Shown here piece after piece: positions 3,484-41,999 of a DNA stretch of 64,000 bases (position 1 is the stretch's first letter; each line of letters starts with the position of its first letter). The stretch covers positions 124,001 to 188,000 of the forward strand of contig JAIETZ010000011.1 of assembly GCA_019744775.1 (NCBI GenBank), written 5' to 3'. The position numbers and the translations under genes were made by a program. This stretch comes from Candidatus Obscuribacterales bacterium (GTDB taxonomy: Bacteria; Cyanobacteriota; Vampirovibrionia; Obscuribacterales; Obscuribacteraceae). The notes beneath the pieces were generated by a model that saw only the letters and a program-made list of their open reading frames with translations, ran no database searches and was not told the DNA's origin.

Positions 3484-4842
3484 TTAAAACAGCGATGCTA
3501 CACGACGGCGAAGCGGAACCGGCTTGCCATTGCGGCGTTTGTTACGTTTACGACGAGAGTACCAGAAAATAAGAGCTTCCGCCAACTGAGTAGCATCGTG
3601 TTGCGACGGATTGTCGTGACTTACTACGTTGCGTTTAATTGGACGCACTCCTAGATCACGCACATGGTTTGGATCGTAGGTGACAAAATTTGGTGAAGCA
3701 TCAGGAGACCCTTCTTCCGGAATATCCTCGTTCACTAATACCGCATCAACAAATTTATAGCCTTCGCCCATGGCACAGCCGGAATGTTCAAGCAATGCTT
3801 TGACGTGATCACCAACTGTATAGCCTGTTGTTTCACCAGGTTCAGTCATTACGTTGCAGACGTAAATTCGGCGAGCAGATGTCTGTCTAATCGCTTCTGA
3901 TACTCCCTGTACAAGCAAGTTCGGAATTATCGATGTATACAAACTACCAGGACCAAGCACAACCAAGTCGGCATTCATGATTACATCAATAGCATCAGGT
4001 GCCGGCTCCGGATTTGCCGGGTCAACCGACATGCGAGCGATGTGTCCATTCGCTTCAGCAATGTGCGACTCACCACGCACTTCTCTGCCATCTTCCAGTT
4101 TCGCAACCAATGTTATGGAATTGAGCGTTGACGGCAAAACTTGTCCACGACTATTCAGAACGCGGCTGGCAACTTTCACGGCTTGAAGCATGTCGCCATG
4201 TGTAATTTCGCAAAGCGCGGTCAGGAATAAATTACCGAAGCTGTGCCCTTCCAGTCCTTGCCCAGTTTGAAAGCGATAACGGAAAAGTTCAGTTACCAAT
4301 TTTTCTTCATCGGCTAATGCAGTAATACAGTTGCGGATATCACCCGGAGGCAGAACACCCATTTCTTCACGCAAGCGTCCTGACGATCCACCGTCATCGC
4401 CTACTGTGACAATTGCAGTCAAATTGTTGGTATAGACTTTTAGACCTTTCAATAAGTTGGCTAGCCCCGTACCGCCACCTATGACTACAATGCGTGGTCC
4501 TGTCTCCAACTGGGCACGGCGCAACAAGATGTCGGGAATAGATTCTCTGTCTTCCGGTAAATAGGACGCTACTACGTAAGTAAGCGTTCTGGCAAAAGCC
4601 ACGCTAATAAGTACCGCCCCAACTGAAATTGCCAAAATGCCGCTTATTCTGTGCGGCAATACATCGGCCGCATGTTCAAGAATTTCACGAATGAAAACAC
4701 CCGTCAGGGTAATTGGGTGAAAGCCCAGAAGCAGGAGCACACCCAGAACGATAACCAGGACACCCAAAAGCACAAATAGGATGTATCGCTTTAGTCCCGG
4801 CAAAGTCAGTCGCTTAAGTTTATGCGCTAATTCCTTGTTCAT
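3484..4842 (-). CDS. yvcK: YvcK/CofD-like protein, membrane-anchored form
   Basis: A 452-residue member of the YvcK (gluconeogenesis factor) family, related to CofD and known in Bacillus to bind UDP-GlcNAc and to be needed for envelope growth on gluconeogenic carbon. Residues 20-41 and about 66-95 form two hydrophobic segments that should anchor the protein in the inner membrane, an arrangement seen in cyanobacterial homologues. The Rossmann core follows: GGGTGL at 122-127, then TVGDDGGSSGRL at 147-157 and PPGDIRN. The C-terminus is basic. The start ATG overlaps the stop of the upstream RapZ-domain gene (ATGA), so the two are translated together, matching the yvcJ-yvcK pairing known from Gram-positive bacteria. 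Confidence 0.9.
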   Translation of the reverse strand: MNKELAHKLKRLTLPGLKRYILFVLLGVLVIVLGVLLLLGFHPITLTGVFIREILEHAADVLPHRISGILAISVGAVLISVAFARTLTYVVASYLPEDRESIPDILLRRAQLETGPRIVVIGGGTGLANLLKGLKVYTNNLTAIVTVGDDGGSSGRLREEMGVLPPGDIRNCITALADEEKLVTELFRYRFQTGQGLEGHSFGNLFLTALCEITHGDMLQAVKVASRVLNSRGQVLPSTLNSITLVAKLEDGREVRGESHIAEANGHIARMSVDPANPEPAPDAIDVIMNADLVVLGPGSLYTSIIPNLLVQGVSEAIRQTSARRIYVCNVMTEPGETTGYTVGDHVKALLEHSGCAMGEGYKFVDAVLVNEDIPEEGSPDASPNFVTYDPNHVRDLGVRPIKRNVVSHDNPSQHDATQLAEALIFWYSRRKRNKRRNGKPVPLRRRVASLF

Positions 4843-5432
4843 GACCTCTCCTCGCGGTTTGGTCGCATAGCTTCCTGTCCAGTGAGTCCTTCATCGGTAA
4901 CGCAAGACTCGGCAAAGCCAATATTCAGTTCGCGATGTTGCTTCGCTACTTTGTACTGCGGCAACGCATCCTTAAGCCTGGCAGCTAACGCCTCGACAAT
5001 AGTTGTTGAACGATGCTGTCCGCCGGTACAACCAATGGCGACGGTAAATTCACGCCATTTACCATCAGCAAATCTAGGCAGAATAGTGCAGAGCATCGAG
5101 GAAAGCGTATTCAAAAAATCTTGTGCCAGTGCTTGACGTAAAACGTAATCGCTAACCGGCTTGTCCAACCCGGTCAATGGTCTTAACGTTTCTTCCCAAT
5201 AAGGATTTTGCAGGAAACGCACATCAAAAACCATGTGCGCTGGAGGCGGCGGTCCTTGTTTGTAGCCAAACGAAGTGATGGTGACCTCGAGGACATTGCT
5301 GCCCACAGATCCATCAACTGCGATCTTGCTTTTAGCCAAGTCTTGATTCAATTCCACTTCACCGGGACAACAAAAGTATATCCTAGTCCGATTGTAATGC
5401 CGCCGATGGTAATCCGCGCTGTTTTCAACCAC
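4839..5432 (-). CDS. Stand-alone RapZ C-terminal domain protein
   Basis: The protein matches only the C-terminal half of RapZ/YvcJ: TSFGYKQGPPPPAHMVFDVR (about residue 53), LRPLTGLDKPVSDY, and the signature AIGCTGGQHRS. Full-length RapZ is about 285 residues with an N-terminal P-loop ATPase domain; no Walker A motif exists here or in the short gap upstream, which leads straight into def. In E. coli the C-terminal domain binds small RNA and glucosamine-6-phosphate, so an RNA- or sugar-binding role is possible. Residues 1-45 match nothing recognised. The GTG at 5432 is the longest choice; a later GTG close to residue 43 is possible. The gene is coupled to yvcK by ATGA. Confidence 0.8.
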   Translation of the reverse strand: MVENSADYHRRHYNRTRIYFCCPGEVELNQDLAKSKIAVDGSVGSNVLEVTITSFGYKQGPPPPAHMVFDVRFLQNPYWEETLRPLTGLDKPVSDYVLRQALAQDFLNTLSSMLCTILPRFADGKWREFTVAIGCTGGQHRSTTIVEALAARLKDALPQYKVAKQHRELNIGFAESCVTDEGLTGQEAMRPNREERS

Positions 5433-5439
5433 TTCTTAC

Positions 5440-5540
5440 TGTATTTTTACGCTCCGGCTGCGTTACACTCCGCCTTCGCTAGCCATCCGACCTTCCACGC
5501 TTCACTCCGCATCGCTCCTCGCGACGCTGCGTTCTCGCTG
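5440..5540 (-). repeat. GCGA-rich leader repeat, copy 1 (upstream of the RapZ-domain gene)
   Basis: Read on the minus strand this stretch is rich in GCGA/GGAG words, carries the core GGATGGCTAGCGAAGG, and ends in GCCGGAGCGTAA about 19 bases before the GTG of the RapZ-domain gene. The same core and end box recur before fabF, etfA, gpmI and rph, each time in the direction of the following gene. Here the element fills the gap between def and the RapZ-domain gene, so it would be inside a transcript. Confidence 0.7.
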
Positions 5541-5551
5541 TAGCTTTGACA

Positions 5552-6127
5552 CTACCCGATTAGTGCTTTCTGTGAATTGGCATCTACAACGATTGTTTCG
5601 TCCTTGTGTGCAACTTCAACAGCGACTCCATCAAAGCCATGCTTGGTTAGTTCCAAATCAGCTACAAGCTTCGATACAGCCTTATCGATGAAGAGCTGAC
5701 CATCGAGGTGATCCATTTCATGTTGAATGGCACGGCAAAGTAAATCACCTTTAGCTTCTAATTTTTGCTCTTTGCCGGCGAGGTTGTGATAGCGAACAAC
5801 AACGCGGCTAGCGCGGCGCACTTCAAAAAAGACATCAGGGAAGCTCAAGCAACCTTCCAAGCCGACCATTTCGCCATCAGCTTCAACAATCTTAGGGTTG
5901 ATGAAGACGATTGGGCGCCGCGGCTCATCTGTCGGAGCCACGTCGATAACCATCATCTGCTTAGAAATGCCTACCTGCGGAGCAGCGAGTCCAACTCCGT
6001 TGTGTTCATACATGGTCTCGAGCATGTCATTAGCTAGTTTGCGCAGCGAATTGTCAAAAGAACTTATCTTTTTGGCATGCTGACGCAGTACATCGTCTGG
6101 AAAATAGCGTATTTCTAAGTTTGCCAT
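5552..6127 (-). CDS. def: Peptide deformylase
   Basis: Removes the formyl group from the N-terminal Met of nascent proteins in the cytosol. All three metal-site motifs are present: motif I GVGLAAPQVG (44-53), motif II EGCLSFP with metal ligand C93, and motif III QHEMDHLDG with H136, E137 and H140. Motif II has Phe where Val or Ile is more usual. At 191 residues it has a somewhat extended C-terminal tail. A Shine-Dalgarno-like AGGGA lies 8 bases before the ATG at 6127. The RapZ-domain gene and yvcK follow in the same direction, separated by a repeat element. The gene is surely functional. Confidence 0.96.
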   Translation of the reverse strand: MANLEIRYFPDDVLRQHAKKISSFDNSLRKLANDMLETMYEHNGVGLAAPQVGISKQMMVIDVAPTDEPRRPIVFINPKIVEADGEMVGLEGCLSFPDVFFEVRRASRVVVRYHNLAGKEQKLEAKGDLLCRAIQHEMDHLDGQLFIDKAVSKLVADLELTKHGFDGVAVEVAHKDETIVVDANSQKALIG

Positions 6128-8511: not shown

Positions 8512-8771
8512 AACGCCCTCCCAATCAGGCTGCGCATTTCAGGACCGATTCAATTGTGCGAACGTAACTGTGGTAATTAGAGCCTCTTGTCAGAGCACCC
8601 CGCAAATGAATTCTAATTAGTCATTTGACAACAATTTTGACGCCAAATCCAGTCTTGGATTTGCGGAATACAGCCAAAACAATATACAGAACCTAAATAA
8701 TTGCCAAAAGGAAAGTATAAAACTAGCTAGTGACCGCCTTATACGGTTAGAATTGCCAATGGTCCAAAAAT
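8512..8771. other. Intergenic stretch without a recognised gene
   Basis: AT-rich DNA between the small membrane peptide and the tandem repeat. A TTGACA occurs at 8625-8630 on the plus strand but has no -10 box at the right distance. On the minus strand TTGCGG with TCTAAT 18 bases downstream (around 8582-8611) might serve the small peptide. No dyad or coding frame stands out. Confidence 0.5.
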
Positions 8772-9060
8772 AAGCGAAGCAAGCGTTGCGGTAGCGAAGT
8801 AGCGACGAAGGAGCTACGGAGCGGACTTGAAAAAGACCCAATGCGCGCCAAAGCGAACCTCGGTTGCTGGATGGCAAGCGAAGACACAAAAATTGGACAA
8901 GCGAAGCAAGCGTTGCGGTAGCGAAGTAGCGACGAAGGAGCTACGGAGCGGACTTGAAAAAGACCCAATGCGCGGCAAAGCGAACCTCGGTTGCTGGATA
9001 GCAAGCAAGGAGACAACCCAGTGAGTTGTCGGGGCAACCGTAAAAAGCGAAACCGGAGCG
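8772..9060 (+). repeat. GCGA-rich leader repeat, copy 2, as a 126-bp tandem duplication upstream of fabF
   Basis: Two near-identical copies begin at 8772 and 8898 (period 126). Each runs from AAGCGAAGCAAGCG through TAGCGACGAAGGAGCTACGG to CTCGGTTGCTGGAT and then the core GGATGGCAAGCGAAG (GGATAGCAAGCAAG in the second). They differ at only one or two places over the first 110 bases. The second copy continues to GCGAAACCGGAGCGTTA, the family's end box, 8 bases before the fabF GTG. The GGAG of that box is the only ribosome site fabF has. The open frames on the opposite strand are products of the repeat, not genes. Confidence 0.85.
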
Positions 9061-9067
9061 TTACATT

Positions 9068-10342
9068 GTGATCAGAAGCAACAGAAGAGTCGTTATTACA
9101 GGCATAGGGATGGTCAGTCCCCTAGGAATCGGCAAGGAAGACAACTGGAAAAACCTTCTTGCAGGACAAAGCGGCGCAGGTTACATAAGCCTTTTCGACC
9201 CAGACGCTGAACGTCTTGATGTCAAGATAGGCGCTGAGGTCAAAGATTTCGACATCACCAACTTTTACCCGGACAGACGTAAATGGGGTTCCATGCTCAA
9301 AGAGATGGACCGCGTTACGCTTTTCGCCATGGTTGCCTCCAAATTGGCAATGGCAGACGCCGTACTCGATATTCGCAAGGAAGCAGATCCAGAGCGCGTC
9401 GGTACCTTTATCGGTACAGGGGTTGGTGGTCTAATTACGACAACCTTTGAACAGATGCGCCTGATGGCAGACGGCCCACGCAGCATAAGCTTGCGTTCAA
9501 TCATCAAACTCATGCCTAATGCTCCGTCCGGACAAGTAGCCATTGAATACGGCGCCAAAGGCCGCGCAAAGAGCGATGCTACTGCCTGCGCAAGTGGATT
9601 GGATGCATTATTCGATGCTTTCATGTACATCAAGAACAATCGCGCCGATGTAATGATCTCCGGCGGAACAGAAGCTTCAATCAATCCATTTGCAATCGCT
9701 TGCTTCAGCAAGATGATGGCATTATCCAAGCGCAATGACGATCCACAAGGTGCCAGCCGTCCATTTTCAGCTGACCGCGATGGCTTCGTCATGGGCGAAG
9801 GCGCCGTTATCCTCATCTTGGAAGAACTGAATCACGCCTTGAAGCGCGGCGCTCCGATTTTTGCTGAGATAGTCGGCGGCGGAGCCAGTTGTGATGCCAC
9901 GCACATTGTTGCCCCTGACGAGAAGGGTGCTGGTGTTGCTCGCGCTATGAAAGAAGCATTAGCTGAAGCGGAAATGAAACCATCAGATATTGATTACATC
10001 AATGCTCATGGCACATCGACACCACTGAATGACGAGCGAGAGACAATCGCCATCAAATCCGTCTTTGGTGATCATGCTTACAAGATTCCAATTTCCAGCA
10101 CCAAGTCCATGACGGGACACATGCTTGGAGCAGCAGGCGCATTGGGTGCAGCCGTCACTGCTATGTCTATTCAAGACAATATGGTCCACCCAACAATCAA
10201 CTACGATAATCCGGATCCGAAATGCGATCTCGACTATGTACCAAACGTAGCTCGCGAAGCCAAGATTAACACCGCCCTAGTTGAAGCCCTCGGCTTCGGC
10301 GGACATAACACAGTATTGGTACTGAAGCGCTTCGTAGCGTAG
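9068..10342 (+). CDS. fabF: 3-oxoacyl-[acyl-carrier-protein] synthase II (KAS II)
   Basis: Condenses malonyl-ACP with a growing acyl-ACP in fatty acid elongation; cytosolic homodimer. The Cys-His-His triad is complete: C174 in DATACASGLDAL, H314 in NAHGTSTPLND and H351 in KSMTGHMLGAAGA. At 424 residues it is about ten longer than E. coli FabF. The GTG at 9068 is the first start downstream of the repeat element, with GGAG at 9055-9058 nine bases before it. No other fab gene is adjacent, so it is transcribed alone or from a promoter upstream of the repeat. A strong intrinsic terminator follows the stop. Confidence 0.96.
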   Translation: MIRSNRRVVITGIGMVSPLGIGKEDNWKNLLAGQSGAGYISLFDPDAERLDVKIGAEVKDFDITNFYPDRRKWGSMLKEMDRVTLFAMVASKLAMADAVLDIRKEADPERVGTFIGTGVGGLITTTFEQMRLMADGPRSISLRSIIKLMPNAPSGQVAIEYGAKGRAKSDATACASGLDALFDAFMYIKNNRADVMISGGTEASINPFAIACFSKMMALSKRNDDPQGASRPFSADRDGFVMGEGAVILILEELNHALKRGAPIFAEIVGGGASCDATHIVAPDEKGAGVARAMKEALAEAEMKPSDIDYINAHGTSTPLNDERETIAIKSVFGDHAYKIPISSTKSMTGHMLGAAGALGAAVTAMSIQDNMVHPTINYDNPDPKCDLDYVPNVAREAKINTALVEALGFGGHNTVLVLKRFVA

Positions 10343-10365
10343 CGTCGTTTGTCGTGCTTCTCGTA

Positions 10366-10389
10366 GGGGCGCATGCAATGCGCCCTTTT
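10366..10389 (+). terminator. Intrinsic terminator after fabF (GGGCGCAT palindrome)
   Basis: GGGCGCAT (10367-10374) and ATGCGCCC (10378-10385) form a perfect 8-bp stem with a 3-base loop, followed by TTTT. The sequence GTAGGGGCGCAT...ATGCGCCC recurs after ispG and between gcvPB and rnd, so it is also a dispersed repeat. Confidence 0.8.
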
Positions 10390-10446: not shown

Positions 10447-12777
10447 TTACTGCTTCGTCGCTTGAACTGTTGCTTGCTGAGCAGCGTAGCTTAACACGCT
10501 CGGATCCGGCATTGCCGGATCATTATTTAGGCTGCCACCACTTCCCATCATACCGACATTTGCACTTTCAGTATTCTCAACTGAATAAGAAAGCGCTGAC
10601 TGATGACGGCTGTCTTGTGAGAGAAATGGAAAACGTCTGACCATCGCCTCTCTAGTCACAGCAGAGGTAGCGGAAGAACGCTTCGTCGAACCAAACAACT
10701 CCGGCATTGTACCTTTTAACTCGTCATACTGAGCAAGCGTATCAGCATCAAATCCACCAAGTATCCCTGACATGCCGGCATTTGGACCTCTTAGCGAATG
10801 ACCTCTGTCAGAAGCCTTTAAAGTTTGAGAAAACGACGGCGTTACTATTCTTGTAAAACTAGTAGTTGGTTGAGCAGGCGGCGTAAAACGAAGTCTTCTG
10901 AAAGCCGGATGAATTTGAGCTGAGACAACTTCTGCTGCTTCACTTGGCGGCGAGTATAATCCGACTCGGAATCCTAATTCATTCATCCAATCAGGAAGTT
11001 GCTTGCTGAACTTCTCATATTGCTTCTCTTCAAATAAAGACTGCCAAGTATTCGTCGGACCCGTGATTGTAATATCGTCACTATTGGAAGCAGAATGCGC
11101 CGCCACGATGCTACCACCTACTGCAGTAAATGGTACAGCGTAAGAAGTAAATTTGGCATTGACACCAGAAACAAGTGAAGGCTGTCCGTATTTAGATTCG
11201 TACTTGAATTCGATCTTTGAATCGCCTTTGGTTCCAAACTGGGATTCAAAAGCAGCTATCCGCTCTGCGCTGAATGGATTTGAAGTCTCAACAGGTGCAA
11301 CTTCAACTGCTTTCGCCTCTCTAACTTCAACAACTTCTGTTTCCGCTACATTCGGTTCTGCGGCCTTGACCTGGACTGCATCGACTTCGGCTTGAGCAAC
11401 TTCCCTGACTTGACCTTCTGCCAATTGCGACTCGGTCGTGACAGTTGCAGTGTCTTGTGCACGGACTTGTTCAACTTCGGCGTTCTTAACGTCGGCTTCA
11501 GTTACTTGAACTTCTTTCGCATCGACTTTTCTTGTCTCGGTTTCAATTACTTGAACTTCTTTTGCATCGGCTTTTCTTGTCTCGGTTTCAATTACTTGAA
11601 CTTCTTTTGCATCGGCTTTTCTTGTCTCTGCTTCAGTTACTTGAACTTCTTTTGCATCGGCTTTTCTTGTCTCTGCTTCGACTATCTTCTGCTCGACAGC
11701 CTTAGCTGTATCAGCCTTCGGTTCGGCCTTCGGCTCGGCTTTCGGCTCGGCTTTCAGCTCAGCTTTCGGTTCAGCCTTGCCTTGCGGTTCTTGAGCTTTG
11801 AGATTTCTAGTTTGGTTCTCGATAGGCTCGCCAGATTTTGCTTCAGAAGATGCTTTGAGCTTGAAAGTACCAGACCCTGCATCGGCAGACTTCGCATTAT
11901 CAATTACAAAGTTCCGCTCAATTTTGCATTGGAGAAGTGGAATCTTTCTTGAAGTCGGTACTGGTTCAACCTTCGACTCAGCTTTACCTTGTACTTTGGT
12001 TTCTGCGCTAGCATATTTAGCTTCTGCGCTAGCGTGCACATTCGCTTCACCATGCCTGGCTTTTAGGTGGAATTTACCAAACTTACCCAAAGCCATTTGC
12101 GCAAGCGGGAAAGTTGCTCCAAAAGCGGCACCTTCACCGGAGACATTTAGCAGATCGTTTTGATTTATTTCTTTGCCGGCAACCAAGCTGGACGCATAAT
12201 AGCCGCCCACGGCACTGCCTGCACCAATTACCGGTTGAGCGGCAATTTTCGTGAATCGATACTTGGCCGGTAAGAGATGATTTGCGCCGTCATACATGAG
12301 CATAGTAGTGGCACCACCAGCGGCATTTGCAACACGTCCCTGCATGTTATCTGCGTTCAAGTAAAAGTCATGAACGCCGGCACCAACTACGTTGCCTACA
12401 GTTTTGTTGCTCAACACCTTAATGGCTGATTCGCCCAGCTTAAAAGCCGTACCAAATTTCTTGCCGACTGTTTGCGTTATTAGCCCCGCCACCGAATAAG
12501 TGACAGCGCTTACAGAACCATGCACAAAGAAATCAGTAGACTTACCTACAAAATCATCCGGCTCATGTTTGGTTTTTTCAGTCTGTTTCGCCGGCTGAGC
12601 CTTGCCACCGTGAGCCAACCAGTCAATGTCATTGGCAAAATTCTTTACCGGATCAAAGATATCTTGCTCAACTGCGTTCGAAAACGAAGCGCCCAGGTCG
12701 TTTTGTACCCAGCCTTGCAGAGTCCTTTTCTCAGGACCTTTCTTATCGTCTTCAAACTGCCCAGTCTGCGAAGTCAT
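10447..12777 (-). CDS. Giant modular protein of unknown function, paralogue A
   Basis: A 776-residue protein with no signal peptide. Residues 1-240 form an Ala/Gly-rich region with several hydrophobic helices (for example SVSAVTYSVAGLITQTVG, FGATFPLAQMALG) that may be membrane-associating. The middle (about 240-500) is low complexity: EPKA repeats and a 15-residue Lys/Glu repeat (AETRKADAKEVQVTE) four times over, probably helical coiled coil. The last 170 residues share a domain with the protein coded just upstream: LPDWM, TPSF, a Gly-rich SGILGGFDADTLAQY, then RRFPFL and HQSALS. GGTGA five bases before the ATG is the ribosome site. No known family was recognised; tandem duplication of the gene followed by divergence is the likely origin. 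Confidence 0.8.
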   Translation of the reverse strand: MTSQTGQFEDDKKGPEKRTLQGWVQNDLGASFSNAVEQDIFDPVKNFANDIDWLAHGGKAQPAKQTEKTKHEPDDFVGKSTDFFVHGSVSAVTYSVAGLITQTVGKKFGTAFKLGESAIKVLSNKTVGNVVGAGVHDFYLNADNMQGRVANAAGGATTMLMYDGANHLLPAKYRFTKIAAQPVIGAGSAVGGYYASSLVAGKEINQNDLLNVSGEGAAFGATFPLAQMALGKFGKFHLKARHGEANVHASAEAKYASAETKVQGKAESKVEPVPTSRKIPLLQCKIERNFVIDNAKSADAGSGTFKLKASSEAKSGEPIENQTRNLKAQEPQGKAEPKAELKAEPKAEPKAEPKADTAKAVEQKIVEAETRKADAKEVQVTEAETRKADAKEVQVIETETRKADAKEVQVIETETRKVDAKEVQVTEADVKNAEVEQVRAQDTATVTTESQLAEGQVREVAQAEVDAVQVKAAEPNVAETEVVEVREAKAVEVAPVETSNPFSAERIAAFESQFGTKGDSKIEFKYESKYGQPSLVSGVNAKFTSYAVPFTAVGGSIVAAHSASNSDDITITGPTNTWQSLFEEKQYEKFSKQLPDWMNELGFRVGLYSPPSEAAEVVSAQIHPAFRRLRFTPPAQPTTSFTRIVTPSFSQTLKASDRGHSLRGPNAGMSGILGGFDADTLAQYDELKGTMPELFGSTKRSSATSAVTREAMVRRFPFLSQDSRHQSALSYSVENTESANVGMMGSGGSLNNDPAMPDPSVLSYAAQQATVQATKQ
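11497..11691 (-). repeat. In-frame 45-bp tandem repeat, four units, in paralogue A
   Basis: Units begin at 11497, 11542, 11587 and 11632 with a degenerate fifth start; each encodes AETRKADAKEVQVTE with T/I and A/T changes. Being a multiple of three, gain or loss of a unit keeps the frame. Confidence 0.85.
11716..11777 (-). repeat. In-frame 12-bp repeat coding EPKA/ELKA
   Basis: About five 12-base units of the GGCTCGGCTTTC type encode consecutive EPKA or ELKA tetrapeptides in paralogue A. The coded segment should be an extended, flexible linker. Confidence 0.8.
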
Positions 12778-12908: not shown

Positions 12909-15599
12909 TTAAGCTTCTTCATCCTGGTTAGGTTTGCTGCCTTGTCCGACGCCGGTAGAAGGTGGTTCCTGTTGTCCGGAAGCGGTTGCTGTAGAAGTCG
13001 ACGCTAGGCTATAGCCTGGACCGAAATCGACGCGTGAGTCAGGTCTGACAAAGAGTGCTGATTGCCGTTTTTGTGCATCGTTTGCCAGGTATGGATAGCG
13101 TTTAAGCAACATTGCCTGCTGTGCATCCTCTGCGGTGTGCAGCAATTGCATCAAGTGGTTGTATTGAGCTAGAGACACGGCATCAAAACCACCTAAAATT
13201 CCAGGAATACCTTGCATTCGTCCAGTGAGGGTGTGTCTGTTTCCGAGGGTGGACAAAGGCTTGAATGTCGGCGATACGATTCTGGCATCGTCTGCCAAAT
13301 GAGTTCGAGTGCGTTGCACAAAAGCAATCACCTTGCTTGTCTCGGGCGACGATACCGTACCTGGTGACAAAAGGACTCTATGTCCAAATGGTTTCATCCA
13401 ATCCGGCAATTTTTCAATGCGTTGATTTTCTGCACGTTCTTCGACAACCTTAGCGAACTCTTGTTTTGACTCGTTGACGCCGGCATTCATTGTCACCGCT
13501 GAAAAAATTGGGTTGACCGGATTATCTAGCCTGACGGACTGTCCTTCGTTTGTTTCGGCTTTTGCCAAAGCTTCGCGCTCCGGAGCAAAATCCATTTTTG
13601 GTGATCTCTCGGGTGGATAAACATAGCTAATCGTTGCTGTGGAATCAGAAATAGCTCTATAGAGCGTGGCGGCGGAAATGTCCGTATACAGATGAGATAA
13701 CAAATCCCTGTTGGTTGCCAGACTTAGAATCATCACTGTCTGCACTAACCGAGCAGTTGTATCTGCGTCCTTTGATTGCTCGATAAGATCAATTGTCTTG
13801 AGCAAATTCGCATGCGCCAAATCGCGCATAGTGTACAAATTGTCTATCTTAGTGGACAGCACGAATTGAGACTCAGTTGTTTTTGCATTTTCCAAACGTT
13901 GAAATTCAGCAGCAGTCTTAACAACGGACACATCCGCGACAGATATTTTCAACTTGTCTGCAATAGGTGCCGTTGCTTTATTTGTCTCAACCAACTTGTT
14001 GTAGTCCTTCACGCTGGTATCAAGAGAAGCAATTGCCTTATCCTGCTGGGCTCCTTTGCCGGTAATTGCATCTTGCACATCTCTTTGCACAATGCTTGCT
14101 TTCTGCACAAGTGCTGCGCCTAATGGGTGACTAGTGTCTGCATGCTCTTGCACTGGAGCAACCGCCTTGGTGATGTTGTCGACGGCGCGGGCAACATCAT
14201 GCTTAGGCTCAGGGGCTTTTGCCACCACCTCTCGCATGATGTCTTTACTTTGAGCCGGCTTCTCTACCGGACGATCTGTTGCAACCGGCATAGCTGGAGT
14301 TTCACTAATACGGACATCGCTCGTTTGACGTGTCAGTGGTTGAGTCTCAGCCGGCGGCTCAAAACTTCTAGCTGGAGAAATGTTTGTCGGCGCAGAAGGA
14401 ATCGAAGAAATGGTTCTTGGAGTGGTTGCTGGCTTGCCTTTGCTTGGCGTATCAGCCTTCGCATCCGCAATGACACCCGGCGACGGATAGTCACCACGCA
14501 AATCAGTCGAGGGCCTAATTACCGGAGTTGTAGATTTTGGAGGAGTTGTAGATTTTGGAGGAGGTGTGTCTTTTGTTGGCGTCGCGTCTACTGTCAAATT
14601 AATGACCAGCTTCTTGCCGCCATCAAACCAGTGGCCAATTGTGTGACCACCGGCATCAATAGCTGTGCCGCTATTTGCCACCGGCATTTTTACATCTGAT
14701 ATCGGCGGGGGAAAAGGTACGTCTCCTTTTCCAATTGGTTTCTCCACAATCAAAGGCTTAACATGATCATCCTTCGCAATCTTCGTCATTGGCAATTCGC
14801 CTACTACAGGAGGCGTCTTATAGACGGACTCAGTTGCACTTATCTGTAAAACAACTTTGCTTTCCGTGTTGAACGGCACGTGCGCGTTTTTCTCATCGCT
14901 TATAACCGTCGTCTCTTTGACCTCAGCCACCTTACCTGTGATAGTCGGTTGTTTGGCATTAATTACTTCACTAGCAGGCGTAATTGCTTTGTCCAGAGTA
15001 GTCTCTTTCGCAATTGTGGTTTCTTTAGCCGGTGCGGCTTCCTTCGCCGGCATAACTTCCTTAGACTGTGTGACGATCTTTTCTTTCGCAGAAGATTCCT
15101 TTACCGAAGGTTCCGGCTTCTCGTATACGCTTTCGGTGATACCGGTTTGCAAAAAGATTTTGCCGTCAGTCGATTTACTCGATTTTGTCTCTATCTTTTC
15201 GTCAATTGCTTTTACCTGTTTTTCCGCAGGCAATTCATTCCAAAACTGCTCACCGATGCCGGTCTCCGCTTTTGTTTCACGTGAGCTGTTGAACATTCTC
15301 TCGTACATATCGTCGCCGGTTTTAATCAGCGATTCGCCGGCAGGATCAAGAACCCCCTGCATGGCAACCAGTCCCTTAAGCTCGGTTTTCGGCGGAAGCT
15401 CACTCTTCGGGGCATTGCTATCATCGGTCGTCACGTTAGCTGCTTGCGACAGTATTTGACTGGCTTCGGTTTGCTCCTTGGTCCCGGCATCGGCTTTGCT
15501 CGTCAGTTCCTGTTTATCCGAGCCGGCAGGCGCAGCCTTACGCCGCTCAAGACCTTCGTCTGAGCCTTTCGGCGTCTCTCTGCTGTTATCACCAGTCAT
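12909..15599 (-). CDS. Giant modular protein of unknown function, paralogue B
   Basis: An 896-residue protein that starts with a charged, disordered region (MTGDNSRETPKGSDEGLERR), continues with Lys/Glu/Thr-rich and Pro/Thr-rich low-complexity stretches to about residue 460, has a helical block (about 460-660; ITKAVAPVQ to ATISYVYPPE), and ends in the same C-terminal domain as paralogue A: LPDWMKPFGHRVLL, SPTF, RHTLTGRMQGIPGILGGFDA, LAQYNHL, LKRYPYL and QSALF. There is no signal peptide or recognised enzyme motif. Paralogue A follows in the same direction after 131 bases. Ribosome site AGGTAGGA lies 12 bases before the ATG. Perhaps a surface or cytoskeleton-like structural protein, but no function is claimed. 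Confidence 0.8.
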   Translation of the reverse strand: MTGDNSRETPKGSDEGLERRKAAPAGSDKQELTSKADAGTKEQTEASQILSQAANVTTDDSNAPKSELPPKTELKGLVAMQGVLDPAGESLIKTGDDMYERMFNSSRETKAETGIGEQFWNELPAEKQVKAIDEKIETKSSKSTDGKIFLQTGITESVYEKPEPSVKESSAKEKIVTQSKEVMPAKEAAPAKETTIAKETTLDKAITPASEVINAKQPTITGKVAEVKETTVISDEKNAHVPFNTESKVVLQISATESVYKTPPVVGELPMTKIAKDDHVKPLIVEKPIGKGDVPFPPPISDVKMPVANSGTAIDAGGHTIGHWFDGGKKLVINLTVDATPTKDTPPPKSTTPPKSTTPVIRPSTDLRGDYPSPGVIADAKADTPSKGKPATTPRTISSIPSAPTNISPARSFEPPAETQPLTRQTSDVRISETPAMPVATDRPVEKPAQSKDIMREVVAKAPEPKHDVARAVDNITKAVAPVQEHADTSHPLGAALVQKASIVQRDVQDAITGKGAQQDKAIASLDTSVKDYNKLVETNKATAPIADKLKISVADVSVVKTAAEFQRLENAKTTESQFVLSTKIDNLYTMRDLAHANLLKTIDLIEQSKDADTTARLVQTVMILSLATNRDLLSHLYTDISAATLYRAISDSTATISYVYPPERSPKMDFAPEREALAKAETNEGQSVRLDNPVNPIFSAVTMNAGVNESKQEFAKVVEERAENQRIEKLPDWMKPFGHRVLLSPGTVSSPETSKVIAFVQRTRTHLADDARIVSPTFKPLSTLGNRHTLTGRMQGIPGILGGFDAVSLAQYNHLMQLLHTAEDAQQAMLLKRYPYLANDAQKRQSALFVRPDSRVDFGPGYSLASTSTATASGQQEPPSTGVGQGSKPNQDEEA

Positions 15600-28959: not shown

Positions 28960-28983
28960 AGCACTTTCGTCATTGTTTTTGTA

Positions 28984-29007
28984 GGGGCGCATTGCATGCG
29001 CCCTTTT
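28984..29007 (+). terminator. Intrinsic terminator after ispG (GGGCGCAT palindrome)
   Basis: GGGCGCAT (28985-28992) and ATGCGCCC (28996-29003) form an 8-bp stem with a 3-base loop and are followed by TTTT. It lies between the convergent stops of ispG and etfA and repeats the element seen after fabF. Confidence 0.8.
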
Positions 29008-29023
29008 GGAACAACGAACTTGT

Positions 29024-30007
29024 TTAATTCTTCCCGTTCATGTGCTTCAGTTCTTCAGTAACCTTCGGCACAATCTCAAGAACATCACCAACGATGCCGT
29101 AGGTAGCATGTTTGAAGATAGGCGCTTCCGGATCTTTGTTGATAGCAACAATGACTTTAGAAGACGACATGCCGGCTAAGTGTTGGATGGCTCCGGAAAT
29201 TCCACAAGCAATGTACAACTGCGGGCTTACTGTCTTGCCTGTTTGTCCAACTTGATGCTGGTGGTCAATCCAACCGGCATCGACTACGGCGCGTGAAGCG
29301 CCAAGTGCAGCACCCAGTACATCACAAAGATTTTGCAGCACAGGCCAATTTTCCGGTCCTTTGATACCACGACCGCCGGCAACGATAATTGGAGCTTCGG
29401 AAACTTCAATTGTTTGCCCCTTGGCGGCGTGAACTTCACCAACCTTGGCACGAATGTTGCCTGCGGCAACTGCCAGGTCTTCTACTTGTGCTTGATGCCC
29501 TGCATCAGCTGCAGCCAATGCGAATCTGTTTGGACGCAATGTCAAAAACACTAATGGAGAAGCAAATTCGTAAACACCATATGCTTTGCCGGAATACATA
29601 GGTTTAACGGCCGTCAATGACGATCCTTCGCTCTTGATCTCGGTAACATCCGTAGCAATTGGCGCATCTAGTCTTGCAGCCACGCGTGGGATGAGATCTT
29701 TAGCCATTGAGGTTTGAGCGCTGAATACAAATGCCGGATCAGCTTTTTTAACTGCTTCGGTAACAGCTTGCGCATAACCTTCTGTCGAGTAGTTAGCAAA
29801 ATCGCCACTATCGACGACAAATATTTTTGCCGGCTTGTACTTGCTAATTTCTGCAGTCAGTCCTTTTACATTTTGACCAACTACAACTGCACTAACAGAA
29901 CCACCAACGTTGCCTATCAAGCGAGCTGCTTCGGACAATGCTTCTAAGCTGGACTTTCTTACTTGTCCGTTGCGTTGTTCGATGAAAACTAAAATTCCCT
30001 GTGCCAT
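29024..30007 (-). CDS. etfA: Electron transfer flavoprotein, alpha subunit
   Basis: Binds FAD and, with EtfB, carries electrons from acyl-CoA dehydrogenases to the membrane quinone pool. The N-terminal domain begins [20 protein letters not shown]; the C-terminal FAD domain has [60 protein letters not shown] and [20 protein letters not shown], all classic. Length 327 is typical. GAGGT eight bases before the ATG is the ribosome site. A 116-base GCGA-rich repeat separates it from etfB upstream, an unusually large gap for this gene pair. Confidence 0.97.
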
Positions 30008-30123
30008 TTTTGTATACCTCTTTGTGCGCTCCGGTTTCGCTATCGCTTCACCTTCGCTTGCTGTCCAGCAGCCGCCGTGCGCTCCGCTGGCGGACGGCTC
30101 CTCGCCGCCCTTGCGTCGCTTCC
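30008..30123 (-). repeat. GCGA-rich leader repeat, copy 3 (between etfB and etfA)
   Basis: On the minus strand the element starts with GAAGCGACGCAAGGGCGG, carries the core GGACAGCAAGCGAAGG, and ends GCGAAACCGGAGCGCAC about 18 bases before the etfA ATG. It is GC-richer than its flanks and fills the whole gap inside the etfBA operon. A GCGGCGAGGAGCCGTCCGCC segment could fold as a hairpin (GGCGG/CCGCC). Confidence 0.75.
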
Positions 30124-30906
30124 TCAGATTACGTGGGCTTCTTCTCTGAGAAGCTTCACCAGGGTCTTAGCCTGAGTATCTACATCACCATCGATCAATT
30201 TGCCTTGCGGTCTTTCCGGCGGCATAACCATTTGCTTGAGACGCATTTTGCGCTTGTCTGCTGAAAAGTTGCCGGCCACGCCTAAAGCATTGGCGTCCTT
30301 AACGGCTATTTCTTTGCGTCGTGCTGCCATCACACCCTTGATTGAAGGATAGCGTGGTTCGTTCAAGCCCTTCTGGGCACTGAACAAAGCAGGCAAATTG
30401 CCTTCGACTATTTCATGTGCGCCTTCGATTTCGCGCTCAGCTTTGAATTTGTTGTCTGTCACTTCCAATTTCACTGTCATCGCAACTTGCGGCATATCCA
30501 AAAATTCAGCGAGCATGGAAGGAACAGCGCTGTTGTCTCCGCCTACTCCTTGCTGTCCGCAGAATACTACGTCGTAACCACCCTCTTTGATTACATTAGC
30601 TAGAATTTTCGCCGTGCTCAGAGGATCAAGATTTTCCAACTCTGCATCTTTGACATGAATTGCCGAATCGATACCGCGAGCCAATGAATCACGTAAAACT
30701 TCGGTTGCTTCATTTCCACCGATTGCAATGGCAACGGTTTCTCCACCGAATTTTTCTTTCAGCTTCAAAGCTTCTTCAATGGCAAACTCATCATATGGGT
30801 TGGTAATAAAACGAACATCAGCTGTATCAATATTCTTGCTGTCACCAGCAACTTTGATTTTGGCTTCAGTATCCGGAACTGACTTTATACAGACGGCAAT
30901 TTTCAA
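30124..30906 (-). CDS. etfB: Electron transfer flavoprotein, beta subunit
   Basis: Partner of EtfA; its AMP-binding domain completes the ETF dimer. It begins KIAVCIKSVPDTEAKIKV and contains NPYDEFAIEEALKLKEKFGG, GIDSAIHV, VVFCGQQGVGGDNSAVP and ALFSAQKGLNEPRYPS, standard for the family. The start is set at a TTG at 30906, because AAGGGGG lies six bases upstream and because KIAVCIK is the normal N-terminus; the ORF extends nine codons further up. The C-terminus carries a Lys/Arg-rich recognition segment. The operon probably serves the acyl-CoA dehydrogenase coded nearby. Confidence 0.96.
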   Translation of the reverse strand: MKIAVCIKSVPDTEAKIKVAGDSKNIDTADVRFITNPYDEFAIEEALKLKEKFGGETVAIAIGGNEATEVLRDSLARGIDSAIHVKDAELENLDPLSTAKILANVIKEGGYDVVFCGQQGVGGDNSAVPSMLAEFLDMPQVAMTVKLEVTDNKFKAEREIEGAHEIVEGNLPALFSAQKGLNEPRYPSIKGVMAARRKEIAVKDANALGVAGNFSADKRKMRLKQMVMPPERPQGKLIDGDVDTQAKTLVKLLREEAHVI

Positions 30907-30945
30907 GGTTTCCCCCTTCAGCTCGCCTAACACGCGTGGCGACTA

Positions 30946-33214: not shown

Positions 33215-33318
33215 CAATAGCGAAACGAAGGATTGCGACCTGAGCAATCCGAAGTTGAGCGTGGATGAGCTGGATGGCAAGCGAAAGCAAAGGCGAAGCC
33301 GTCGCTGGAGCGCAATCT
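33215..33318 (+). repeat. GCGA-rich leader repeat, copy 4 (upstream of gpmI)
   Basis: Runs from CAATAGCGAAACGAAGG through the core CTGGATGGCAAGCGAAAG to GTCGCTGGAGCGCAATCT. The end box GGAG (33307-33310) lies eight bases before an ATG at 33319, in frame with gpmI. Upstream is a separate inverted repeat, GATTTATC (33152-33159) and GATAAATC (33199-33206), in the divergent promoter region. Confidence 0.7.
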
Positions 33319-33351: not shown

Positions 33352-34896
33352 ATGAATCCCGTAGTGCTATTAGTTTTAGACGGTTGGGGCGTTACTGAAA
33401 AGTCCGAGGGCAATGCCATTAAGGCTGCCAAAACCCCAAACTACCAGCAGATGCTGAAATTGTTTCCCAATAGCTTGCTTGATGCCTCCGGTGCAGCAGT
33501 TGGTCTGCCGATTGGACTGATGGGCAATTCGGAAGTTGGTCATTTAACGATTGGTTCCGGTCGTGTGGTTATTCAAAAACTTACACAGATAAGTGAAACA
33601 ATTGCCGATGGCACATTCTTTGCTAATCCGGTTTTGCTGGAAGCCTTAGAGCGTGCTCGCAATAATAATTCGGCCGTGCACATTCTTGGTTTGGTCAGCG
33701 ACGGCTGCGTGCATTCCAGTCTTGATCATCTATATGCATTGATCGACATGGCTAAAAAAGAAAATGTAAAAGAGATAGTTGTCCATCCAATTCTCGATGG
33801 ACGCGATACACCGCCACGTTCAGCCTGGCGTTTCATGCGCGAGCTGGAAAAGAAACTTGCCGGCGTAGGAATTGTTGGCGTTGTCTGCGGGCGATACTAC
33901 GCCATGGACAGAGACAATCGCTGGGAACGCACGCAAAAATACTACGATGCTTTGACCTTGTCCTCAGGCATAAAGGCAGAATCCGCTCAAGAAGCAGTGC
34001 AACATGCTTACATGGAAATGGACACCGGCGATGAATTTGTAATGCCGCATATCGTCAATGCCCGTCCAATTCAAGATGGCGACAGTGTAATTTGTTTCAA
34101 TTTCCGCCCGGATAGAGTCAGGCAAATAAGCAGATGTTTGACTCAATCATCATTCGATGGTTTCGAAAGAGCAGCACTACCGAAAACTTATTACGCTTGT
34201 CTTACTGAATACGACAGATCACTCAATTTACCGGTGGTTTTTGCACCGGAAGATATGCCTTCGCAAGATTTGGTTGCTACGCTACCGGAAATTCTTTCTT
34301 GCCACCACATCGGTCAATTACACACGGCGGAAACAGAAAAATATGCGCACGTCACATACTTTTTTAACGGCGGCATGGAAAAACCTTTTGATGGCGAAGA
34401 GCGTATCCTTATTCCATCTCTCAAAGTTGCCACCTACGACAAGAGTCCCCCTATGCAAACAAGCAAAGTATGTACCACTGCTTGCGATGCAATAACGTCA
34501 GGTGCCTATCCATTCATCGTGCTCAACTTTGCCAATCCTGATATGGTCGGACACACGGGAATTATGGAAGCGGGCATTGAAGCTGTCGAATCAGTCGACA
34601 ATGCTTTTGGTCAGCTTTTAGAAACGATAAGTAAGGCAAAGGGAACTTTGCTGATTACTGCTGATCATGGAAATATTGAACAGCTAATCGACTATGAAAC
34701 AAAAGAGCCACATACGGCTCACACCACAAATCCAGTTCCATTTGTGGTGGCAGATTTCAGCGGCAAAATTCGCAATGGCGCCAATTTAGTCGACGGCACA
34801 CTGGCTGATGTCGCTCCGACAATTCTTGAACTACTTTCCATTGACAAGCCTCGTGAGATGACAGGAAAATCACTACTTAGAAACTTCAAGATCTAG
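33352..34896 (+). CDS. gpmI: 2,3-bisphosphoglycerate-independent phosphoglycerate mutase
   Basis: Interconverts 3- and 2-phosphoglycerate in glycolysis and gluconeogenesis with a two-Mn2+ alkaline-phosphatase-type site. It begins VVLLVLDGWGVTEKSEGNAI; the phosphoserine is S60 in LMGNSEVGHLTIGSGR. Other metal and substrate motifs are HPILDGRDTPPRSAWRFM, GRYYAMDRDNRWERT, NFANPDMVGHTG and TADHGNIEQLID with AHTTNPVPF. From the ATG at 33352 the length is 514, exactly the E. coli length. An in-frame ATG at 33319 with GGAG eight bases upstream would add 11 residues, and the frame is open to 33265 within the repeat element. Confidence 0.96.
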   Translation: MNPVVLLVLDGWGVTEKSEGNAIKAAKTPNYQQMLKLFPNSLLDASGAAVGLPIGLMGNSEVGHLTIGSGRVVIQKLTQISETIADGTFFANPVLLEALERARNNNSAVHILGLVSDGCVHSSLDHLYALIDMAKKENVKEIVVHPILDGRDTPPRSAWRFMRELEKKLAGVGIVGVVCGRYYAMDRDNRWERTQKYYDALTLSSGIKAESAQEAVQHAYMEMDTGDEFVMPHIVNARPIQDGDSVICFNFRPDRVRQISRCLTQSSFDGFERAALPKTYYACLTEYDRSLNLPVVFAPEDMPSQDLVATLPEILSCHHIGQLHTAETEKYAHVTYFFNGGMEKPFDGEERILIPSLKVATYDKSPPMQTSKVCTTACDAITSGAYPFIVLNFANPDMVGHTGIMEAGIEAVESVDNAFGQLLETISKAKGTLLITADHGNIEQLIDYETKEPHTAHTTNPVPFVVADFSGKIRNGANLVDGTLADVAPTILELLSIDKPREMTGKSLLRNFKI

Positions 34897-35433: not shown

Positions 35434-36363
35434 ATGAAATGCGGGATTACTTTCATATTGGCATTGGGATTTCTGGCAACTTGTGGAACTGCAAGTGCTC
35501 AAGATCCAAATCTTTCATCGTTGATTCCACAACCTCCGGCAAACACAGACTCTGTACTTAACAACGGCCCTGTTGTAGTACCGCCAATAAGTTTCATCGA
35601 CATTAATTCCGGACGCTTCGGCAAATTGGAAATTGATCTTGTCGATGCGCAATTCCTTGATGCCGCCGTCGACAAAATGCATCTTATTGCCAAGAATCTC
35701 GACCTGAACTCCGGCACATTAGAGTCACTGGACATTGATATTAAAGGCGGGCACTTCCAAGATTTCACATTCGACAATTTGGTTTTGTCCACGGCCGGCA
35801 CACTTAACTTCGATACTGGCGTTTTGCTTAATCAAAAAATATTGCAATTTAGAACTCCCGCAACTGCACAAGTATCAGCCGTAATTACTGAAGAAGGTCT
35901 CAATCGTTTTCTCAAATCCCCACGCACTCTTGATCGCTTGTCGGTAAATTCCGGCAAGAAACTAGGCTTTCTAAAGAGCCTTCTGGGCAACAACGCCAAT
36001 ATTGGACTGACTGTGACAAACGGCAATATCACTTTGGATAAAGGCAACAGGGTGACAATCGCTATGGATACTAGACTTGCCGCCGGCGGCGTTGGCGTAC
36101 CAATCCCAGTACAACTCAATACTCGCCTCGGACTCAAAGACGGCTGGGTTGAACTTAGCGACACTCACCTTTTAACCTCGGGTCAAGAAATCTCGCCAGA
36201 ACTTTCTCAAATGATAGTCAAGAAGGTGAACGGGCTTGCCAACTGGGGTCAGTCAACTGACGACATCATCTTTAAGTTCACCAAACTGAAAGTCGTTCCC
36301 GGCAATAAGTTCATCCTGGAAGGCACGGCTGATGTCAACAGGCTGCGCTTTGGAAGAAATTAA
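35434..36363 (+). CDS. DUF2993 (LmeA-like) secreted lipid-binding protein
   Basis: A 309-residue protein with a signal peptide (KCGITFILALGFLATCGTAS, cleavage after ASA near 22) and a DUF2993 domain from about residue 60: GKLEIDLVDAQFLDAAVDKM, then LESLDIDIKGGHFQDFTFDN and the later ITEEGLNRFL. The family, found in Cyanobacteria and Actinobacteria, includes mycobacterial LmeA, a phosphoinositide-binding envelope protein. The alternating beta strands suit a lipid-holding tube in the periplasm. A leader repeat and rph follow in the same direction. Exact ligand unknown. Confidence 0.85.
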   Translation: MKCGITFILALGFLATCGTASAQDPNLSSLIPQPPANTDSVLNNGPVVVPPISFIDINSGRFGKLEIDLVDAQFLDAAVDKMHLIAKNLDLNSGTLESLDIDIKGGHFQDFTFDNLVLSTAGTLNFDTGVLLNQKILQFRTPATAQVSAVITEEGLNRFLKSPRTLDRLSVNSGKKLGFLKSLLGNNANIGLTVTNGNITLDKGNRVTIAMDTRLAAGGVGVPIPVQLNTRLGLKDGWVELSDTHLLTSGQEISPELSQMIVKKVNGLANWGQSTDDIIFKFTKLKVVPGNKFILEGTADVNRLRFGRN

Positions 36364-36364
36364 G

Positions 36365-36475
36365 CTCCGAGCGAGAATGGAGCGTTGCGATAGAGCAATG
36401 CAGAATGGAGCGGGGAAATGCCGGATGGCAAGCGATGGTGCAGCGAGCGCAGCGAACGAAACCGGAGCGTTATAG
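36365..36475 (+). repeat. GCGA-rich leader repeat, copy 5 (upstream of rph)
   Basis: Runs from GAGCGAGAATGGAGCG through the core GCCGGATGGCAAGCGATGG to GCGAACGAAACCGGAGCGTTA. It has the family's core and end box, but the end box lies about 76 bases before the rph ATG, with two hairpins in between. Confidence 0.75.
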
Positions 36476-36545: not shown

Positions 36546-37271
36546 ATGTACCGGCGGCGCGATAACCGTCAGTTAGACCAACTAAGACCAGTCAAATTCA
36601 CGCGTAACTTCACTAAGAATGCGGAAGGGTCAGTATTAGTTGAGTTTGGCGACACCAAAGTTTTAACAACAGCAAAAATTGAAGAAAGAGTTCCTGCGTT
36701 CCTTATGGGCAAAGGCGAAGGTTGGATTACCGCTGAGTATTCCATGCTTCCAGGCGCTACTCATGTAAGGACCGTGCGCGAAGTCACCCGTGGGCAACCG
36801 TCAGGCAGAACAAGCGAAATTCAGCGTCTAATCGGTCGTTGCCTGAGAGCCGTTGTCGACAGACGTGCCTTGGGTGAACGCACCATCACGCTTGATTGCG
36901 ATGTCCTGCAGGCTGACGCCGGCACGCGTGTGGCAAGCATCTCCGGAGCCTTTATAGCTTTATATGACGCGCTTTTGAAACTACAAAAGTCCCTTCTCTG
37001 GGATTCATTGCCTATAACTGAGCACATGGCGGCTGTTTCCATTTGCCAGGTACAAGGCTCGCTTGTTTTGGACCCTAACTACAATGAAGACTCGCAAGCG
37101 GAAATGGACTCAAATATCGTGCTGACCGAATCCGGCAAAATTCTGGAATTGCAGATGACATCAGAAGCCAAGCCCTACGAGGCATCCAAAATGCCCGAGC
37201 TAATTGCTTTAGCCGAGAAGGGTGTTAAGGAAATTATCGAACTGCAATACAAAGCTTTTGGCGGCCGGTAG
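36546..37271 (+). CDS. rph: Ribonuclease PH
   Basis: Phosphate-dependent 3'-5' exoribonuclease that trims tRNA precursors; hexameric ring. The family sequence is clear from the start (RRRDNRQLDQLRPVKFTRNF), through EGSVLVEFGDTKVLTTA, the phosphate-site region LPGATHVRTVREVTRGQPSG and RTSEIQRLIGRCLRAV, to LDCDVLQADAGTRVASISGA. At 241 residues it has normal length. The ATG at 36546 has a weak ribosome site behind two leader hairpins, so translation may depend on leader folding. RNase PH genes often precede an NTP pyrophosphatase gene; here a UbiB-type kinase follows instead. Confidence 0.96.
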   Translation: MYRRRDNRQLDQLRPVKFTRNFTKNAEGSVLVEFGDTKVLTTAKIEERVPAFLMGKGEGWITAEYSMLPGATHVRTVREVTRGQPSGRTSEIQRLIGRCLRAVVDRRALGERTITLDCDVLQADAGTRVASISGAFIALYDALLKLQKSLLWDSLPITEHMAAVSICQVQGSLVLDPNYNEDSQAEMDSNIVLTESGKILELQMTSEAKPYEASKMPELIALAEKGVKEIIELQYKAFGGR

Positions 37272-41942: not shown

Positions 41943-41989
41943 GTAGGAGCGCATTCCACACCATGTGTAGGGGCGCATTGCATGCGCCC
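41943..41989. repeat. GGGCGCAT palindromic repeat, third copy plus a degenerate half
   Basis: GTAGGGGCGCATTGCATGCGCCC occupies 41967-41989 and has the same 8-bp arms as the copies after fabF and ispG. No T-run follows on either strand, so it is not a good terminator here. GTAGGAGCGCATTCCACACC at 41943-41962 looks like a decayed neighbour. The pair lies between the gcvPB start and the rnd stop. Confidence 0.7.
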
Positions 41990-41999
41990 TCATCATGTT

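Follow-up and report, generated by a model that had tools for sequence, protein, structure and literature searches.

We consider it approximately 80% probable that the GCGA-rich elements upstream of five genes in the window, a 64,000-nt stretch of a Candidatus Obscuribacterales genome, are members of a family of dispersed repeats that are non-autonomous, mobile, and structured, measure approximately 100 nt each, and are found in one bacterial family. The initial annotation of the window described the five elements as leaders oriented strictly towards the next gene. A covariance model and scans of the whole genome and its relatives showed that the family is real and far larger than five copies.

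Copy number and range of the repeat family

The genome containing the window comprises 4.10 Mb in 13 contigs and is 97.8% complete. The core of the element, GGATGGCAAGCGA, is weak evidence when taken alone within the window (6 matches versus 2.1 expected); genome-wide, it had 166 matches versus 27 for the reversed pattern. An alignment of 29 genome copies found through this core revealed one element of approximately 100 nt with two subtypes, the 3′ half of which is common to both. The covariance model R1, which was built from 27 copies, detected 112 copies in the genome with calibrated E-values down to 9e-23, and at least 67 copies each in the sister species G001 and G002 of the same genus. 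As in the BOX/SDR-like class of repeats, many similar short copies therefore occur in the intergenic DNA of a narrow clade.

A more distant form of the element, alike in architecture, was found in at least 10 other genera of the family, and 13 genera of this single family carry the element overall. The R1 matches in other genera were weak (1e-4 to 1e-10), yet corresponded to complete elements that share hairpins 1 and 3 and terminate in GGAGCGCTTA. A model made solely from other genera recovered 88 copies in the genome of the window, with E-values up to 3.6e-13, although its loci were picked by R1 and the two models are, thus, not fully independent. The same model detected approximately 95 copies in G010, 57 in G020, and 55 in G004; many further genera of the family had none, G003, G006, G007, and G011 being among them. 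In the rest of the phylum, one weak single match was obtained in 243 genomes when the best 16 candidates per genome were scored, and the exact core pattern was absent from the viral contigs searched. The window had no Rfam match at the gathering threshold, and the best copy had none even at an E-value of 10. As far as tested, the repeat is confined to one bacterial family within Candidatus Obscuribacterales.

Copies in the window

R1 placed a copy at all five loci on the strands previously assigned. A type-B copy (5447–5541, minus strand, 83 bits) lies between def (5552–6127, minus) and a gene with a RapZ C-terminal domain (4839–5432, minus), and a type-A copy (30024–30124, minus, 89.1 bits) starts at the stop codon of etfB (30124–30933, minus) and precedes etfA (29024–30007, minus); Pfam assignments of these genes confirmed that the two copies are located inside the def-rapZ and etfB-etfA gene pairs. 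Two further type-B copies are on the plus strand, one at 33215–33315 (71.5 bits) upstream of gpmI (ATG at 33352, GpmI by Pfam), and the other at 36368–36472 (73.7 bits) between an LmeA-like gene (stop at 36363) and rph (ATG at 36546). The rph copy is identical in a sister species at 105 of 105 positions.

The fabF locus is atypical because of a 127-bp tandem duplication (8772–8889 and 8899–9016, 96% identity) and an extra GCGA/GGAG-rich insert in the loop of hairpin 1. It holds two degenerate copies on the plus strand: one at 8769–8911 (40.5 bits), with the loop insertion and no end box, and one at 8935–9063 (30.1 bits), with a nested small hairpin AAGGAGACAACCCAGTGAGTTGTCGG at 9007–9032 (plus) and an exact end box CCGGAGCGTTA at 9053–9063 (plus). 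This box ends 4 nt before the GTG start codon at 9068, which places its GGAG at the distance of a Shine-Dalgarno (SD) sequence.

The copies at all five loci read towards the next gene, as originally noted, and the distance to its start, given as 8–76 bases, was remeasured at approximately 4–73 nt. The core said to be shared by all five loci is exact before fabF, gpmI, and rph and carries one or two changes before rapZ and etfA; similarly, the end box is exact at fabF and rph, and not at the other three loci. Separately from this family, four or more tandem 45-nt repeats were observed at 11465–11689 within a long minus-strand open reading frame (10447–12777).

Structure and covariation

The element begins with GAAGC and ends with GGAGCGTTA, the consensus over 162 copies. 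Hairpin 1 has a 7-bp stem and a GANGA-type loop, hairpin 2, present in the genus of the window, has the form GCC-GGAN-GGC, and hairpin 3 is GC-GAA-GGY...RCC-GGA-GC followed by GTTA. The GAA opposite GGA in hairpin 3 would stack as G.A pairs, resembling sheared-GA motifs. On the plus strand of the rph copy, the predicted fold places hairpin 1 (GCGTTGC-GATAGA-GCAATGC) at approximately 36382–36400 and hairpin 2 (GCC-GGAT-GGC) at approximately 36420–36430, both with covarying stems, while the end box at 36462–36472 forms the 3′ arm of hairpin 3.

When 27 copies were aligned with plain MAFFT, 92.3% of the cells were paired and double changes were found at 13 of the 21 pairs; pairing fell to 26–47% when the partners were slid along the alignment, and RNAalifold recovered the same hairpins unaided. 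Among 111 distinct copies from the genome, the corresponding values were 92.9% and 20 of 21 pairs in an alignment that was fitted to the model and, hence, leans towards the structure. Compensatory changes exceeded every shuffle in both sets. Double changes were also present at 8 of 12 pairs in 20 copies from other genera, and at 10 of 12 pairs in G010, with 96.5% paired. The folding energies of single copies were mostly uninformative (z-scores of -0.5 to -2.9).

At one stem position, G.U, A-U, or G.G occurs and the complementary C.A does not, which suggests that it is the strand of the element itself that folds, either as RNA or as single-stranded DNA. We infer that the structure is recognized in one of these two forms during movement. 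Stepwise compensation inside fixed copies was considered as a source of the double changes and rejected; the whole stem block, and sometimes the orientation, differs at several shared sites, and so replacement or re-insertion provides a better explanation.

A smaller repeat is nested in the element. The 28-nt hairpin AAGGAGACGACACTAAATGTGTCGTCGG occurred 15 times in the genome versus none for the reversed pattern, and its stems change in pairs (GACGAC/GTCGTC, GACAAC/GTTGTC, GAAGGC/GCCTTC, and GAGGAC/GTCCTC). Of the 30 instances encountered in the stretches read, variants included, 27 were embedded in the larger element with the same strand orientation, frequently within the loop of a hairpin, and their presence varied between orthologous large copies. 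One large copy (L189, 11996–12172) holds two of these hairpins with different stems. One of the three remaining instances was a spurious match; copies of the form AAGGAG...CTAAATG...TCGG outside the larger element were observed at 9077–9104 in L183 and at 13615–13642 in L248, the latter apparently at or inside the 3′ end of a reading frame.

Orientation and position in intergenic gaps

The strict orientation proposed from the five loci did not hold genome-wide. Among the 89 copies placed in the genome, gap types matched the genome background, with nine copies between convergent genes, and antisense copies and copies before tRNAs and a terminator also occurred. A marked bias was nevertheless evident in tandem, co-directional gaps, in which 48 copies were sense and 10 antisense (p = 4.5e-7). 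It recurred in the sister species at unshared sites (11:4 in G002 and 10:1 in G001), while local GC skew revealed no association with the replication strand (54 of 99). The neighboring genes are unrelated by Pfam.

The random orientation that would speak against the earlier proposal of an RNA-level leader or an insertion bias was, therefore, absent from the window's genus and present in G010, in which the tandem copies among the 56 placed were 11 sense versus 13 antisense (p = 0.84). Convergent gaps were over-represented in G010 (21 of 56 copies versus 43 of 292, p = 2e-4), and short loci from genera other than these two provided 10 tandem cases, six sense and four antisense. The proposal is, thus, partly supported: the sense bias is strong and non-strict in the window's genus and absent in G010. 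The cause may be that sense insertions are favored in the window's genus, by selection or by an insertion preference, and a bias in one genus could mean domestication.

The initial annotation also called for distances to start codons to be compared with random positions, and this comparison revealed an excess of flush 3′ ends. Gene starts were taken from our own caller, which gives a small bonus to SD-like sequences. Twenty-one copies ended 0–6 nt before a same-strand gene or tRNA versus 7.9 ± 2.4 expected, and 11 ended no more than 6 nt from a stop codon or feature end on the opposite strand versus 3.9 ± 1.6 expected; neither count was reached in 5000 simulations of random placement within the same gap (0/5000). 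In antisense copies, the terminal TTA is on or beside the stop codon of the neighbor. Flush ends were also found in G010, in which a distance of at most 6 nt was measured for 8 of the 22 sense copies and, relative to a stop codon, for 14 of the 34 opposite copies. Since flushness is general and the sense bias is not, a conserved leader function is ruled out for the superfamily and a genus-level bias is left.

Five copies immediately precede a tRNA on the same strand, at a distance of 2–9 nt. Copies between tRNA genes (Arg-Lys, Ile-Ala, and Ser) were observed in L178 (12018–12339), L185 (9849–10151), and L169 (14041–14364), and these tRNA-adjacent copies would, if transcribed, form a 5′ leader that is removed in tRNA processing.

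Probable supply of Shine-Dalgarno sequences

In 17 of the 18 copies flush with a protein start, GGAG (or GGAA) was located 6–10 nt before the ATG, most often 8 nt, and the 17 genes had no other SD; in the remaining copy, the box was mutated to CAGAGC. Among copies 7–25 nt from the start, a native SD followed the element in 13 of 20. The start codon was conserved in the empty alleles of sister species where such an allele exists, and two of these alleles hold a native SD (AAAGGA in G002 and GAGG in G001) that is missing from the filled allele. These sequence comparisons support a putative role in translation initiation at 17 genes, with the end box supplying the SD; GGAG probably acts as an SD in the cell, and at approximately seventeen genes the start signal for protein synthesis seems to have been taken over by the 3′ terminus of the repeat.

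Insertion polymorphism between related genomes

The etfB-etfA copy is absent in two relatives, with a short plain spacer in one and another palindromic repeat, GTAGGGGCGCATTGCATGCGCCC, in the other. The EtfA encoded in the window shares 99% identity with its counterpart in the MAG D3_Bin_14, although the DNA is only approximately 90% identical. Compared with G001 (approximately 92% identical), 30 copies were placeable: 20 sites were occupied, two of these by inverted copies, and the rest were empty. The comparison with G002 (approximately 78% identical) gave a similar picture with 21 placeable copies and again two inverted pairs. The element is, thus, missing at a third of the sites in sister species, a presence/absence polymorphism at orthologous sites of the kind that characterizes BOX/SDR-like repeats. 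One insertion in G002 is flanked by a perfect 15-nt duplication, AGAGTTTGTTAATGC, and one further site has a 12/14 match; most have none, and with only a small excess found, target site duplication does not appear to be general. Taken together, the empty and inverted sites in sister species and an orientation that is not strict indicate a mobile repeat that is sometimes used as a 5′ untranslated region (UTR), and not a dedicated regulatory leader.

True orthologous copies were 96.4% identical, an upper estimate because copies below 90% identity were left out, versus 78.4% for third codon positions and 93.7% for other intergenic DNA. This high identity also fits a host function.

A second palindromic repeat, TGTAGGGGCGCATTGCATGCGCCCT, was observed in the window at 10362–10386, 28980–29004, and 41966–41990 and in the etfB-etfA spacer of L031; in a sister species, it occupies a place at which the genome studied here has a GCGA element. 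It resembles a GTAG-tagged REP, though the genome is without a Y1 transposase match.

Alternative explanations

The view that the copies form a regulon of cis-regulatory RNA leaders, riboswitch-like or protein-bound, with orientation and position reflecting function, draws on the 48:10 sense bias, the covarying structure, the conservation of orthologous copies, and the GGAG of hairpin 3 serving as an SD at 17 genes. We find it hardly probable because orientation is random in G010, copies also precede tRNAs and a terminator or lie antisense at stop codons, sister species have inverted copies at the same site, the neighboring genes are unrelated, and even a permissive Rfam search returned nothing. 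CsrA would be the obvious binder of GGA in hairpin loops, and a CsrA decoy or leader was rejected because no CsrA gene (PF02599) was detected in the genome. That low-complexity GCGA/GGAG-rich DNA is alike by chance or composition has a practically negligible probability: the sequence is GC-rich and purine-rich and single-sequence folding energies are unremarkable, but matches to 9e-23, compensatory changes beyond every shuffle, and 166 core matches versus 27 reversed refute it.

Regarding the mode of movement, a REP/MITE-type DNA element, mobilized by a DNA transposase, most likely a Y1 enzyme acting on single-stranded hairpins whose recognition maintains the covariation, is possible and would be consistent with the hairpins, the intergenic spread, the common 3′ end GTTA, and the lack of a general target duplication. 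We regard it as doubtful since no Y1_Tnp match (PF01797) was found in the genome of the window, G001, G002, G010, G026, or G020, and there are neither terminal inverted repeats nor a GTAG tag, and GC skew revealed no strand bias. A MITE bearing inverted repeats was specifically rejected, the 5′ AGAAGCGAAGC and 3′ CCGGAGCGTTA not being inverted copies. SINE-like retroposition, in which a folded transcript is copied back by a reverse transcriptase (RT) such as that of a group II intron, appears distinctly unlikely. The 15-nt duplication and the 12/14 match, a single RT gene in G001 with fragments in G002, and the conservation of G.U pairs on the element strand favor it; however, target duplications are rare and no RVT_1 match (PF00078) was present in the genome of the window or in G010, which has approximately 95 copies, so that retroposition by a resident RT was rejected for the genome of the window. 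These enzyme searches relied on one Pfam family each (PF01797 and PF00078), which very diverged enzymes could escape.

Comparison with known repeats

The nearest described kinds of repeats are BOX, RUP, SPRITE, tagged REPs, and SDRs, all of which the element resembles in behavior. GTAG/CGTC-tagged REPs and REPINs with RAYT are mobile intergenic hairpin repeats with Cyanobacteria among their hosts, a REP being a 20–40 bp palindrome with a GTAG or CGTC tag at one end (PMC3733652, PMC3116915). The present element is likewise intergenic, hairpin-bearing, and mobile; assignment to the REP/RAYT system was rejected because it is approximately 100 nt long with three hairpins, the end GGAGCGTTA lacks a GTAG/CGTC tag, and the genome has no RAYT (Y1) match.

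The BOX, RUP, and SPRITE repeats of Streptococcus pneumoniae are structured, modular intergenic repeats of approximately 100 nt that have a high copy number in a narrow clade, are polymorphic between strains, inserted into one another, and enriched between convergent genes, and have been suggested to be parasites whose effects on co-transcribed genes are incidental (PMC3049150). The element shares its length of approximately 100 nt, structure, modularity, intergenic location, high copy number, narrow range, polymorphism, and nesting with these repeats, a likeness of kind and behavior. In contrast to them, convergent enrichment was found only in G010, and the window's genus is dominated by sense copies that would supply an SD at gene starts.

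The SDRs of Nostoc and other cyanobacteria, reportedly described by Elhai and colleagues in 2008, are said to be very small hairpin repeats with compensatory changes that are nested in other repeats, and no enzyme is known to mobilize them. Compared by description, the element, and the nested 28-nt hairpin especially, resembles SDRs in its hairpins, compensatory changes, nesting, and occurrence in the same wider phylum, whereas the main element is 4–5 times longer, has three hairpins, and ends flush at its 3′ side.

Proposed explanation and significance

We propose that copies of this mobile repeat spread into short intergenic gaps, where the 3′ end would settle directly against the edge of a coding region or tRNA. 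A copy in sense orientation may provide the following gene with its SD through the terminal GGAG; the terminal TTA of an antisense copy would be on or next to the stop codon of the neighbor. Sense insertions may have been favored in the window's genus, which would leave many copies in 5′ UTRs, some replacing the native ribosome-binding site. A more specific suggestion is a portable 5′ leader, a self-folding RNA with an SD encoded on one of the two strands and a stop codon on the opposite one, that would be placed 1–5 nt from start codons, tRNA 5′ ends, or stop codons, possibly by an RNA-templated process; we consider it unlikely. If true, translation initiation of many genes would have been rewired in one genus.

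The present results add a family-wide, richly structured dispersed repeat to the non-photosynthetic relatives of cyanobacteria, one not met in the RNA-family searches or the papers examined. An old puzzle, namely, which enzyme moves very small hairpin repeats, arises again in a 98%-complete genome without a match to a REP-type transposase or RT. The repeat also represents a clear case in which a mobile element seems to provide host genes with their ribosome-binding site, and the change from a parasite to a 5′ UTR may be tested gene by gene against the empty alleles of sister species.
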